Assembly: GCA_036703985.1 (NCBI GenBank)
Contig: DATNQN010000029.1
Location: 186,001-250,000 of the forward strand
DNA: 64,000 bases
Source: Leptolyngbyaceae cyanobacterium
GTDB taxonomy: Bacteria > Cyanobacteriota > Cyanobacteriia > Cyanobacteriales > Aerosakkonemataceae
Direction: 5' to 3'
Positions 25,502 to 32,796 of the stretch are shown here, in pieces; positions within the stretch are counted from its first letter, which is position 1, and each line of letters begins with the position of its first letter. The notes under the pieces are model-generated. The model did not search any database, was not told the DNA's origin, and saw only the letters and a program-made list of their open reading frames with translations. The position numbers and the translations under genes are program-made.

Positions 25502-25987
25502 ATGAGCGTAGTTAGCCAAGTCATTCTCAAAGCCGACGACGAACTTCGTTATCCTAGCACCGGCGAACTCAAAGCGATCAAAGACTTTTTTCAAACCGGC
25601 TTACAGCGGACGCGCATCGCTTCCACGTTAGCAGAAAATGAAAAAAAGATAGTTCAAGAAGCCAGTAAACTACTTTGGCAGAAACGTCCCGATTTCATCT
25701 CCCCCGGCGGTAACGCCTACGGACAACGGGAACGCGCACTCTGCTTAAGAGATTATGGCTGGTACTTGCGCCTGATCACCTACGGAGTTCTTTCTGGCGA
25801 CAAAGAACCAATCGAAAAAATCGGTTTGATCGGAGTTCGAGAAATGTACAATTCTCTGGGTGTTCCAGTCCCGGGAATGGTTGAAGCAATTCGTGCATTG
25901 AAAAAAGCTTCTTTGTCCCTTCTGAGTGAAGAAGATGCAGCAGAAGCAGCGCCTTACTTCGATTACATTATTCAGGCAATGTCCTAA
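25502..25987 (+). CDS. apcD: Allophycocyanin B alpha subunit ApcD
   Basis: This 161-residue phycobiliprotein binds one phycocyanobilin at Cys81 ([14 protein letters not shown]). It is ApcD and not ApcA: the start [26 protein letters not shown], the [19 protein letters not shown] segment and [22 protein letters not shown] are ApcD features. ApcD is a terminal emitter in the phycobilisome core that helps pass energy to photosystem I and is needed for state transitions. As usual, it is separate from apcABC. The gene is single; a 937-base gap follows. Confidence 0.95.
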
Positions 25988-26261
25988 AATTTATGCTCTG
26001 GGTTTTCCTGGAGGGACTTTTGACTGAATCAATTTTTCCGTTTTCATTTTAACTCGTTTCCCCACTCTTGCTAGTTTTGGCCGATCTTCAGTCAAAATAC
26101 AGGCAAAGGGTGGGGAAATTTTCATTCCCTTTCTATACTATAAATATTGGTAAATTTGAAAAATAGTGAATCGCAACTCTGAATACTAATTATCTTTTGT
26201 ACTCTGACTCCTGTATCATCCTTGATTAATTTGGCTCAAAAAATCAAATTTGCGATCGTAC

Positions 26262-26295
26262 AAAAAACCGACAGTCTGCTTGTAGAATCTGTCGG
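26262..26295 (-). terminator. Rho-independent terminator without an upstream gene (reverse strand)
   Basis: Read on the reverse strand, CCGACAG, a 14-base loop and CTGTCGG are followed by six T residues. No annotated gene on that strand precedes it for more than 900 bases, which argues for a small transcript. Confidence 0.6.
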
Positions 26296-26376
26296 CTGCT
26301 TGTGTGTTCCCTGTCGATGACTCGGCTAGAGTTCAGTTGTTCTGTAGTATGACGGTTTGCGATCGCGAGAATTGCG
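26262..26376 (-). ncRNA. Candidate small RNA on the reverse strand
   Basis: On the reverse strand a promoter-like TTGTGA (26411-26406), 17 bases, TATGAT (26388-26383) is followed about 7 bases on by a likely start near 26376. The transcript would run about 115 bases to a hairpin, CCGACAG...CTGTCGG (26295-26268), ending in TTTTTTG: a classic Rho-independent terminator. No reading frame of note lies inside. I could not match it to known cyanobacterial RNAs such as Yfr1; its CTCCTCACAC motif is absent. It is predicted from sequence elements only. Confidence 0.4.
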
Positions 26377-26394
26377 ATCTAAATCATAGTAAAT

Positions 26395-26410
26395 TGTGAT
26401 TTAGATCACA
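26395..26410. promoter_or_regulatory. Perfect CRP-type palindrome TGTGA-N6-TCACA
   Basis: The sequence TGTGATTTAGATCACA is an exact match to the SyCRP1/CRP consensus (TGTGA-N6-TCACA). On the reverse strand it overlaps the -35 region of the candidate small-RNA promoter, a position from which it could repress or modulate it. It lies 515 bases upstream of the histidine kinase start. Confidence 0.5.
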
Positions 26411-26924
26411 AAAATTTTCTCCATTTTTTGTATGAAACCTATTTGATGATTTGCGATCGCTCCCAAACTTAGTTTTCAATAACATCAGTAATTTTGTAAA
26501 CATAAATACTTTTTAATTAATCTTTTATATTTTTTTAAAAGATTAGTAAAAAGAGCGAACACCTATCATAATTATATATGATGAAAAACTTTGTTTTTTT
26601 TGTTAACAATAAAAAACATATATATGTAATTAAAGATACAACGTCATCATTTTTTTTCTTGTACCTTAGATTAAGGTAAAGAAATTTGAACTTTTATCAA
26701 TTTGCTCGCATTTACAAGTATTACCCGTTCCATAAAATTTTCTCGTAAGATAGAGAAAACCCATACCTGACGTATATGTAACCAGGTGAGACTATATATT
26801 TTTGTCGGTAAGCCTATTACGGATTTTCGTAACTAAAAAAATGTTCAAAAATTTTCAATGATGCTAAGATCGGCAACTTTTACACTTTTAATTTCGTTGC
26901 GTGACTTAGGGAGCTTTTTAGCCA

Positions 26925-28175
26925 ATGACTTGGAACGTAGAACGTAAAATTCAAAGCTTTAATTATGCTCAGAATACACCAGAATTTGGGATAAACCTTT
27001 CCACCAAAAGAGAGATATTAGAACAATCCCTATGCGAAACTAAATATCGCAGCATATTTGAAAACGCCCTAGTTGGAATCTTTCAAGCCACCAAAAACGG
27101 TAATTATTTGATGGTTAACTCAACCTTAGCTACCATTTATGGATACCATTCATCATCGGAATTAATAGCTAATGTAAAAAATATTAAGAAACAATTGTAC
27201 GTAGACAAAAATCGTTATTTAGAATTAATGCGTTTGCTGCAAGAAAATAAGACAATTAAGCGATTTGAATCCCAAGTATATCGTCGGGACGGCACTATAA
27301 TTTGGATTTCCGAAAACGTGCGGCCTATCTATGATAGCAAAGGTAATTTTTTAGGATATGAAGGAACTGTCGAAGATATTACCGAACGCAAATTATCAGA
27401 AAAAATCATCCAAGATGAGCTTAAAAAACAAAGAGATGCTGCTGAATCAAAATATCAATTTTTATCGATGGTTTGCCACGATTTACGAACATTTTTAACC
27501 GTCATCCTCACAGCAAGCGACCTACTTAAATATCATAATAATAAATTAAAAGAAAAAGATAGAGAAAAATATTTTAGCAAAATCTCTACAACCATTAAAA
27601 CAATGAATGAATTGTTAGAAGGACTTTTGGTAATTGGGAAAACAGAATTTGCCAAGCAAACAATTCAAATCGTGCCTTTTGATTTTAGGGGTTTTTGCGA
27701 ATCTATTTGGCAAGACGTTCAGGCAATCACGAAAACCAATCACCAGTTAATCTATTCGAGTATATGCGACAACATAACTCTGATTACTGACAAAACTTTA
27801 CTGCGACAAATCTTAATGAACTTGTTGTTAAATGCCGTTAAATATTCGCCTGAAAGTAATATAGTTTACCTTGATTTAAATTATCAAAATAACCAAATTA
27901 CGTTTAAAATCAAAGACGAAGGAGTAGGTATTCCGAAAGAAGAACAAGATAAATTATTTGAAGCATTTCACAGAGCAAGTAATGCTTTAAAATTTGCAGG
28001 CACTGGTTTAGGTATGACAATTGTCAAACGGGCTGTAGAACTGCAAGGAGGAACGATTTCAGTTGAAAGCGAAGTTGGTAAAGGAACAACATTTGCCGTA
28101 ACTCTACCAACTATTTGTACTAAAATATCAACCAAAGCTTCAGAAACAAAAGTTCTTTGTTGTGTTACTGAATAA
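26925..28175 (+). CDS. PAS-domain sensor histidine kinase
   Basis: This 416-residue soluble sensor has a PAS domain (~39-155, ending with the PAC-like GTVEDITERK). The HisKA helix has His185 in MVCHDLRTFLTV, and the ATPase domain has N303 (NLLLNAVKYSPE), DEGVGIP, an F-box Phe and GTGLGM (359-364). The phospho-acceptor motif has Phe where nearly all kinases have Pro (HDLRTP), which is unusual. No signal peptide or membrane helix is visible, so it senses a cytoplasmic cue. No response regulator is next to it, so it is an orphan kinase. Confidence 0.9.
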   Translation: MTWNVERKIQSFNYAQNTPEFGINLSTKREILEQSLCETKYRSIFENALVGIFQATKNGNYLMVNSTLATIYGYHSSSELIANVKNIKKQLYVDKNRYLELMRLLQENKTIKRFESQVYRRDGTIIWISENVRPIYDSKGNFLGYEGTVEDITERKLSEKIIQDELKKQRDAAESKYQFLSMVCHDLRTFLTVILTASDLLKYHNNKLKEKDREKYFSKISTTIKTMNELLEGLLVIGKTEFAKQTIQIVPFDFRGFCESIWQDVQAITKTNHQLIYSSICDNITLITDKTLLRQILMNLLLNAVKYSPESNIVYLDLNYQNNQITFKIKDEGVGIPKEEQDKLFEAFHRASNALKFAGTGLGMTIVKRAVELQGGTISVESEVGKGTTFAVTLPTICTKISTKASETKVLCCVTE

Positions 28176-30359: not shown

Positions 30360-30453
30360 ATCTACAAGCCCTTACCGATTGGGAACGAATACAGCACAAG
30401 TAATTACGTAAAACTAGATAAAATTAACCTTGTGCTTACGTACAGAAGGTTCC

Positions 30454-32796
30454 ATGTCTACTACCTCTCCTTTCTCCCCTGAAGAAATCGCCGCCGAAGG
30501 GATTAAACCTGAAGAATATCAAGAAATCGTCAACCGTCTCGGTCGCCATCCCAACAAAGCTGAGTTGGGGATGTTTGGCGTTATGTGGTCGGAACACTGT
30601 TGTTACAAGAATTCCCGACCACTACTTAAACAGTTTCCCACCACAGGCGATCGCATCCTCGTCGGCCCCGGAGAAAATGCCGGAGTGGTAGACTTGGGAG
30701 ACGGACAACGCCTCGCATTTAAAATAGAATCCCACAATCACCCATCCGCCGTCGAACCATTTCAAGGTGCAGCCACAGGTGTCGGCGGTATTCTCCGCGA
30801 TATCTTTACAATGGGTGCAAGACCGATCGCAGTTTTAAATTCCCTACGTTTTGGCCCATTAGAAGATGCCCGCAATCGCCGAATATTTAGCGGTGTAGTC
30901 GCGGGAATAGCTGGTTATGGCAATAGTGTTGGAGTACCCACAGTTGGTGGCGAAGTATACTTCGATCCCGCGTATTCCGGCAATCCCTTAGTCAACGCGA
31001 TGGCATTGGGATTGATGGAAACTACCGATATTGTGAAAGCTGGTGCAGTTGGCATTGGCAACCCCGTGCTATATGTTGGTTCTACCACCGGACGGGATGG
31101 CATGGGTGGCGCGAGTTTTGCCAGTGCAGAACTTAGTGATGCTTCAATGGATGACCGTCCTGCGGTGCAAGTAGGCGACCCATTTATGGAAAAATCCTTA
31201 ATTGAAGCTTGTTTAGAAGCTTTCAAAACTGGGGCGGTGGCTGCTGCACAAGATATGGGTGCTGCGGGAATTACCTGTTCAACATCAGAAATGGCAGCCA
31301 AAGGTGGAGTAGGAATTGAACTGGATTTAGATAAAATTCCAGTGCGGGAAACTGGTATGGTTCCCTACGAATATTTGTTATCAGAATCTCAAGAAAGAAT
31401 GTTGTTTGTTGCCCATAAAGGTCGCGAACAAGAATTAATTGATATTTTCCATCGTTGGGGATTGCAAGCAGTAGTAGCAGGAACAGTAATTGCCGACCCA
31501 ATTGTGCGAATACTTTTCCAAGGGAAAGTAGCAGCAGAAATTCCTGCCACCGCTTTAGCTGATAACACGCCAATTTATCATCGAGAATTATTACCTGAAC
31601 CGCCAGACTATGTGAAAAAAGCTTGGCAATGGACACCAGAATCATTGCCTAATTCCACTGCTAAAGGAATTGAAATAAATGGTAATTTCCAAACTTGGAA
31701 TGATGTTTTGTTGACGCTTTTAGATACTCCCAGCATTGCTTCTAAACGTTGGGTTTATCGGCAATATGACCATCAGGTGCAGAATAATACCGTAGTAATG
31801 CCCGGTGGTGCAGATGCGGCAATCGTGCGGGTGCGTCCTTTGGAAGGTGAAACTCAGGCTGCTTACTTGCAAAAAGGTGTGGCAGCAACTGTTGATTGCA
31901 ATTCCCGTTACGTTTATCTCAATCCTTATGAAGGTGCGAAAGCTGTCGTTGCAGAAGCGGCGCGGAATCTTAGTTGTGTGGGTGCTGAACCTTTGGCGGT
32001 TACAGATAATCTGAATTTCGGTAGTCCAGAAAAACCAATTGGATATTGGCAGTTGGCAGAAGCTACTCGCGGAATCGCAGAAGCTTGTGGGGAATTTAAG
32101 ACACCTGTGACTGGTGGAAATGTCTCGCTTTATAACGAAACACTCGATAGTGAAGGAAATCCCCAACCAATTTATCCTACGCCAGTGGTGGGAATGGTGG
32201 GATTAATTTCCGATCTTAGTAAGATTTGCGGTCAAGGTTGGCGGCAACCTGGAGATGCGATTTATCTTTTGGGGCAGCGTTTGGATGCTAAAGAGGGAGT
32301 AACGCTAGGTGCTTCTGAGTATTTAGCGAGTATTCACGGTGTTGTGGCTGGCAAACCACCAGTGATAGATTACAATTTGGAACGGCGAGTGCAAGCTGCG
32401 TGTCGAGAAGGTATTCGTCAAGGTTTGGTATCTTCTGCCCATGATTGTGCGGAGGGAGGACTGGCGGTGGCGCTTTCGGAAGCTTGCATTAGCGGTAAGC
32501 TGGGAGCGCAAATTTATTTAGAATTGAATTCAGAAGCTGCCCTACGTTGGGATAATTTGCTGTTTGGTGAGGGGGGATCGCGAATTTTAGTTTCTGTAGC
32601 GCAAGAACGGACGGAAATTTGGGAATCCTATTTGAAGGAACAGCTGGGTGATTTTTGGCAAAAAATCGGTCAAGTGGGTAATGCCGATGATCTTTTACGG
32701 GTTATTACGGCTGACAACCAATCTTCGATCGACGTTAGCATGACAGACGTATGCGATCGCTATCTAAATGCGATCGAACGCCGCCTTGCTATTTAG
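30454..32796 (+). CDS. purL: Phosphoribosylformylglycinamidine synthase subunit PurL
   Basis: This 780-residue large subunit makes formylglycinamidine ribonucleotide in purine synthesis, using ammonia from PurQ. The N-terminus [16 protein letters not shown], the [13 protein letters not shown] segment (HxxYK-like His), the metal-binding [24 protein letters not shown] region, and the second ATP-grasp-like half ([15 protein letters not shown]) match the small-type PurL. The ATG at 30454 is preferred over an upstream TTG. purQ and purS are not adjacent. purF follows 220 bases downstream in the same direction, a usual cyanobacterial pairing. Confidence 0.95.

Follow-up and report, generated by a model that had tools for sequence, protein, structure and literature searches.

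Does the gap downstream of the phycobilisome gene apcD in a Leptolyngbyaceae cyanobacterium contain a gene for a small regulatory RNA (sRNA)? The window, i.e., the whole stretch of DNA that was analyzed, comprises 64,000 nt of contig DATNQN010000029.1 (positions 186,001–250,000). A preliminary description of it proposed, on the minus strand of this gap, an sRNA with its own promoter, a site for the cyclic AMP (cAMP) receptor protein (CRP) and an intrinsic terminator. At the sequence level, this proposal was supported by the conservation of the set in relatives, and the locus is quite probably a conserved sRNA gene of approximately 78 nt (26262–26339, minus strand), which would be activated by cAMP–CRP at two sites and would act in trans through the stretch AGGGAACACAC. 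In the order of transcription, the minus strand 3' of apcD contains a CRP palindrome (26410–26395), a weaker CRP-type site (26388–26373), the sequence CATACT (26351–26346) and a terminator segment (26295–26262). The interval from the apcD gene to the gene at 26925 contained no open reading frame (ORF) of at least 60 aa, which agrees with the description that the terminator has no gene to serve on its strand. The palindrome TGTGAtttagaTCACA at 26395–26410 is indeed perfect, and it is the sole exact GTGAN6TCAC site in the window. Shuffled sequences are expected to contain 0.46 such sites and 36 of the 100 shuffles had at least one, so the palindrome alone is unremarkable, and the finding would be weak if the window sequence were judged by itself. 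The set rises above chance because it is conserved across the class.

To evaluate this conservation, 60 genomes (the source genome and 59 relatives) were searched using blastn; a match at an E-value of 0.01 was found in 25 of them and one at E < 1e-9 in 18, the source genome included. Among the best 80 of 490 apcD loci, taken from named genomes, 70 contained the RNA (E < 1e-14), always antisense and 3' to apcD; these loci include Nostoc, Calothrix, Cylindrospermum, Chlorogloeopsis, Brasilonema, Argonema, Microseira, Trichocoleus and Coleofasciculus. The ten loci without the RNA according to the model were L063, L081, L084, L088, L089, L092, L096, L098, L101 and L102, with both Fischerella loci (L084 and L092) among them and with fewer than 240 bases of sequence past apcD in L098 and L101. 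Identical sequences were merged (88 to 83), and alignment A1 comprised 47 of the 68 distinct RNAs. A first covariance model built from 47 sequences matched 50 of 386 genomes of the phylum, or 48 without two doubtful cases, namely G127, where the match is probably false because GGGAACAC is missing, and G192, where it is a decayed copy. With distant members added, a second model reached 189 of the 388 class genomes, spread over 87 of 160 genera (E-value of 0.05); 186 of the 189 matches were better than 1e-4, and 20 of the 189 carrier genomes contributed sequences to this model. Distant carriers include genomes of 2.5–2.8 Mb, several of them in one contig. The source genome contains one copy of the RNA, and two to five matches per genome were found in 36 of the 189 carriers, not all of them tandem and some possibly weak. 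In G212, three copies lie within approximately 550 bp and one elsewhere, with CRP sites before each. Of the checks named in the preliminary description, the one open to sequence analysis, whether relatives conserve promoter and hairpin, was therefore positive both in the apcD loci and across the class. Given this distribution and the fixed promoter geometry described below, a chance pairing of palindrome and hairpin with no gene behind it has practically no probability left and is refuted by the conservation, although the palindrome and the TTGTGA/TATGAT pair read as a promoter in the preliminary description each occur near the chance level in the window.

The architecture of the promoter was analyzed in 124 distinct sequences, which remained of 147 nhmmer matches after two antisense matches without an anchor and exact duplicates had been dropped. 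The sequences were positioned by the RNA, not by the sites, and single-base shuffles were used for comparison. In 119 of the 124 promoters, the distal site matched GTGAN6TCAC at 7 or all 8 of its bases (13-base search range; shuffles 0.5%), and the proximal site was present as TGAN6TC in 122 (15-base search range; shuffles 1.9%). The two sites were separated by 22 bp in 109 of the 118 promoters with both and by 23 bp in the other 9. A third site another 22 bp upstream was found in 8 of 119 promoters, and some genomes had the full GTGAN6TCAC motif at two or three in-register positions. The -10 element was CATAAT or CATACT in 92 of the 124 promoters and a variant in 14; the pattern was unmatched in 18. 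Since the promoter sequences are related, 59 of them with less than 70% similarity to one another served as a control set. Its column information peaked at the half-sites, the -10 element and the RNA core, while the spacers were mostly below 0.2 bit, with a minor rise to 0.4 bit at anchor-frame positions -35/-34. The distal site lay no more than 1 nt from its usual place in 52 of the 59 and the proximal site in 53.

In the window, the minus strand carries the distal palindrome as TGTGATCTAAATCACA (26395–26410), the proximal CRP-type site as TATGATTTAGATCGCA (26373–26388) and the -10 box CATACT (26346–26351), which coincides with a peak of column information. Measured by hand, the center of the proximal site lies 41.5 bases upstream of 26339, the -10 box gives the same start, and the distal site is then centered at approximately -63.5. 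The proximal site and the -10 box are approximately 21–22 bp apart (by eye), a spacing that fits class II. This distance agrees with that reported for cyanobacterial CRP-activated promoters, most of the known ones having the -10 box approximately 22 bp past the CRP site, according to the portion of PMC2633013 consulted. In three stretches from the distant carriers of 2.5–2.8 Mb (L147–L149), the proximal site alone is present, as a full TGTGAN6TCACA, so the site at -41.5 looks essential.

These results changed three details of the preliminary description. The TTGTGA-17-TATGAT pair was rejected as the promoter: a stretch of 5 kb contains 14 such pairs, where 13.7 ± 3.7 would be expected, and both hexamers lie on CRP-type sites, TTGTGA sharing five bases with the distal site and TATGAT forming the left side of the proximal site. 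The palindrome, which had been thought to cover the -35 box, appears instead to be an upstream activator site at approximately -63.5. Finally, the conserved -10 box at 26351–26346 and a predicted transcription start near 26339 (± 1, from the position of the -10 box and class II CRP spacing) give an RNA of approximately 78 nt, ending in the T run, in place of the 115 nt described.

The second question is what kind of RNA this would be. The covariance match in the window spans 26344–26260 (90.5 bits, with the window copy itself included in that model). The RNA consists of a variable fold, the almost invariant stretch AGGGAACACAC and the terminator, and its core is nearly invariant in the 47 aligned homologues. 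The AGGGAACACAC stretch (26302–26312, minus strand; alignments A1 and A3) stands before the terminator and is a candidate interaction site. The terminator was found as described, CCGACAG (26295–26289), a loop, CTGTCGG (26274–26268) and six T (26267–26262) on the minus strand; a simple terminator scan, which permits loops of 3–8 nt only, did not return it. In 38 sequences, 95.9% of the cells of its stem were paired and a compensating change was present in 4 of the 7 pairs. The alignment consensus also contains a putative 5' hairpin (UGA-ACUC, a UAGCC loop and GAGU-CA; 26318–26335, minus strand), and distant members such as L144, L147 and L151 are able to form a stem in the 5' part with shifted partners; some 5' structure is thus likely, in one form or another. 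Coding of a protein on the RNA strand was rejected, as neither a conserved ATG nor a ribosome site was seen and indels of 1–2 nt occur within the alignment (by eye). The opposite strand was rejected as the functional one, since the T run after the hairpin is missing there (by eye). The search against Rfam 15, whose families include Yfr1 and Yfr2, gave no match above the gathering threshold in the window and, for 25900–27000 up to an E-value of 10, five sub-threshold matches, all to eukaryotic or plastid families; in 20 homologue loci, HEARO and tRNA were matched but no family for the RNA. One RNA-bearing stretch, L157, contains a HEARO RNA (RF02033) at 292–512. No description of the RNA was found through the literature search, and it may be an unnamed row among the 327 predicted Nostoc sRNAs of Table S3 of PMC4734099, a source available to us in part. 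As far as checked, then, the RNA would be new as a family and of a known kind.

Which protein would read the two sites? The source genome contains eight matches to HTH_Crp_2, six of them above the cut-off. One of the eight, L247, carries GEMAALDEVPRST and RETVTR, which we take to be the cAMP-pocket motif and the recognition helix (RETVxR), respectively. Its best NCBIfam model is CRP (74.9 bits against a cut-off of 266), and its relatives in the PDB include CAP, not as the best match; this is presumably the E. coli protein. An orthologue of L247 (E 1e-45) was found in 286 of the 388 genomes of the class, namely in 178 of the 189 carriers of the RNA and in 108 of the 199 non-carriers. Another CRP/FNR-family protein, such as NtcA, AnCrpB/SyCRP2 or a DevH-like protein, could also read the sites, and a real RNA gene would then respond to nitrogen or redox state instead of cAMP. 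We consider this improbable. The other HTH_Crp_2 proteins of the source genome and the 11 carriers in which no CRP was detected speak in its favor, as does the proximal half-site pair TGAT-N4-ATC, which we take to be FNR-site-like. However, the CRP orthologue accompanies the RNA in nearly all carriers, some genomes repeat the full GTGAN6TCAC motif in register (two or three sites), and the distal motif is TGTGAN6TCACA, as opposed to the GTAN8TAC given for NtcA in the accessible part of PMC6166021. As to the earlier claim, control of the cAMP-receptor type has strong support at the sequence level, given the CRP-type sites and the CRP orthologue in the source genome; the link to the phycobilisome was overstated, adjacency to apcD being common but not obligate.

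In the reading that we prefer, a stand-alone gene would be transcribed into a small non-coding RNA of approximately 78 nt. cAMP-bound CRP of the SyCRP1/AnCrpA type would occupy the two sites, 22 bp or two helical turns apart, and would activate, not repress, a promoter with a -10 element only from the class II position. The RNA would end at its own intrinsic terminator and would probably act in trans via the AGGGAACACAC stretch. Several results weigh against this reading. The proximal site is degenerate in the window, and the counts of promoter sites are confounded by descent. The association of the RNA with CRP is confounded in the same way and indicates the usual availability of CRP rather than its action; 108 genomes have CRP without the RNA, and 11 have the RNA with no CRP detected. 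Ten of these 11 are fragmented or incomplete assemblies, but G148 (99% complete, 2 contigs) is a true CRP-less carrier, and both sites are kept in its RNA stretch, L139. The putative 5' hairpin had 90.2% of its cells paired in the 38 sequences with zero compensating changes, and a G-C pair in it was broken in 14 of them. The window RNA folds no better than expected (7 of 200 shuffles were as good), and its best fold, a weak helix, pairs CUCU with AGGG and covers part of the candidate interaction stretch. In addition, no conserved mRNA 5' region complementary to AGGGAACACAC was found among the sites read.

G148 belongs to a Nostocaceae genus in which the RNA and the CRP gene have been lost in different combinations (G113, G148, G188, G192 and G194). 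G188 and G194 have no CRP match and are absent from the RNA matches, CRP alone was matched in G113 and the RNA alone in G148, and G192 contains a decayed copy of the RNA (L158). This genus is a natural setting in which to ask whether RNA and CRP gene decay together.

The last of the opposing results depends on the searches for targets, in which perfect or one-mismatch complements of 9–13 nt were examined in 21 distinct genomes; an ordinary seed is shorter than these and not continuous. The 10-mer GTGTGTTCCC gave 38 sites in 10 genomes, against 28 for the reversed pattern; 30 of the 38 were read, and 9 were the RNA genes themselves (8 confirmed and one by position). The 13-mer with one mismatch gave 86 sites in 10 Nostocaceae, RNA genes included, and 86 in the control; 20 hand-picked sites of the 86 were read. 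Five of the six GGTGTTCCCTATT sites lay in the coding sequence of trpA. The 9-mer TGTGTTCCC gave 81 sites in 5 genomes, against 67 in the control; 77 were read, five of the 81 were the RNA itself (two confirmed and three by position), and in the recurring families (TnpB, a UrtA-like protein and one other) the site was within the coding sequence. It is conceivable, if somewhat unlikely, that the RNA acts through a protein, or serves another sRNA as a decoy, and does not pair with mRNAs. With the RNA copies removed, complements barely exceed the reversed pattern (29 vs. 28 for the 10-mer and 76 vs. 67 for the 9-mer) and no 5' region recurs; furthermore, the sequence is conserved far beyond the structure, and tandem copies occur in some genomes. 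These counts, however, cover long complements in 21 genomes.

A further question is whether the RNA belongs to apcD. The gene at 25502–25987 (plus strand, 161 aa, allophycocyanin alpha-like) is the convergent neighbor of the RNA gene; its best NCBIfam model is ApcA (218 bits, below the cut-off of 270), from which we infer that the product is ApcD. A cis element without a function in trans, either an antisense transcript or a 3' regulator of apcD, would explain the convergent orientation in 70 of the 80 apcD loci. We regard it as very unlikely, as in the window approximately 275 nt separate the 3' end of the RNA from the stop codon of apcD. Moreover, apcD was present in 35 of the 50 RNA-bearing stretches among L110–L161 and absent from 15, some of which are cut off early; L147–L149 have no apcD within approximately 3 kb. 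Tandem copies with CRP-type sites before each were found away from apcD in L152 (2535–3083) and L151 (3019–3356), one L151 copy being without a good distal site. Antisense regulation of apcD was accordingly rejected as the main role, with adjacency not obligate and no sign of the RNA acting on apcD. On the other side, the genes to the right of the RNA differ among the apcD loci (the largest cluster, purL, accounts for 19 of 68), so the CRP-type sites belong to the RNA. In the window, the right-hand gene (26925–28175) encodes a PAS histidine kinase, is transcribed away from the RNA gene and has as its nearest NCBIfam model a scytonemin sensor kinase, with a score far under the cut-off. The purL gene is located at 30430–32796, and apcD–RNA–purL is a recurrent gene order.

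An RNA gene that is present in approximately half of the sampled cyanobacteria and apparently switched on by CRP suggests that cyanobacteria probably relay the cAMP signal through regulatory RNA. Tentatively, this undescribed family may be a post-transcriptional arm of the cAMP–CRP regulon, possibly one that acts on a protein or another sRNA and not on mRNAs, as no conserved mRNA complement was found among the sites read. The cyanobacterial regulon is described through protein genes, e.g., those of pili, in what we consulted of PMC2633013. In the consulted parts of PMC6166021, PMC4734099 and PMC6778093, those conserved sRNAs for which a transcription factor is known are controlled by NtcA, HetR or a factor of the GntR type. 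If the proposal is true, a widely kept CRP-driven RNA would provide a fast post-transcriptional branch of cAMP signaling, and a single gene of 78 nt would be a compact handle on the role of cAMP in light/dark or carbon shifts.

A comparison with known systems indicated several partial likenesses. Enterobacterial CyaR is likewise a small regulatory RNA induced by CRP, as outlined in PMC6166021 (consulted in part). It belongs to another phylum, whereas the promoter of the cyanobacterial RNA has two and sometimes three sites in register. We know of no sequence shared between the two. The layout resembles that of Yfr1, whose invariant motif is said to be single-stranded between two stem-loops in the sections of PMC4734099 and PMC6778093 available to us; however, the motif is CACUCCUCACACC in Yfr1 and AGGGAACACAC here, the promoter here is of the CRP type, the 5' stem lacks covariation support and no Rfam match was obtained in the window region or the 20 homologue loci. 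For NsiR4 and NsrR1, the accessible text of PMC6166021 describes a CRP/FNR-family factor, NtcA, driving a conserved cyanobacterial sRNA, and its authors also suspect a CRP-like regulator, not identified, at NsrR1. The sites there are GTAN8TAC, in contrast to TGTGAN6TCACA here, and NsrR1 is confined to heterocystous strains. ApcZ, finally, is an sRNA linked to the allophycocyanin locus (PMC8136909, consulted in part), whereas the RNA predicted here, where adjacent to apcD, lies beside that gene on the antisense strand and has a promoter of its own.
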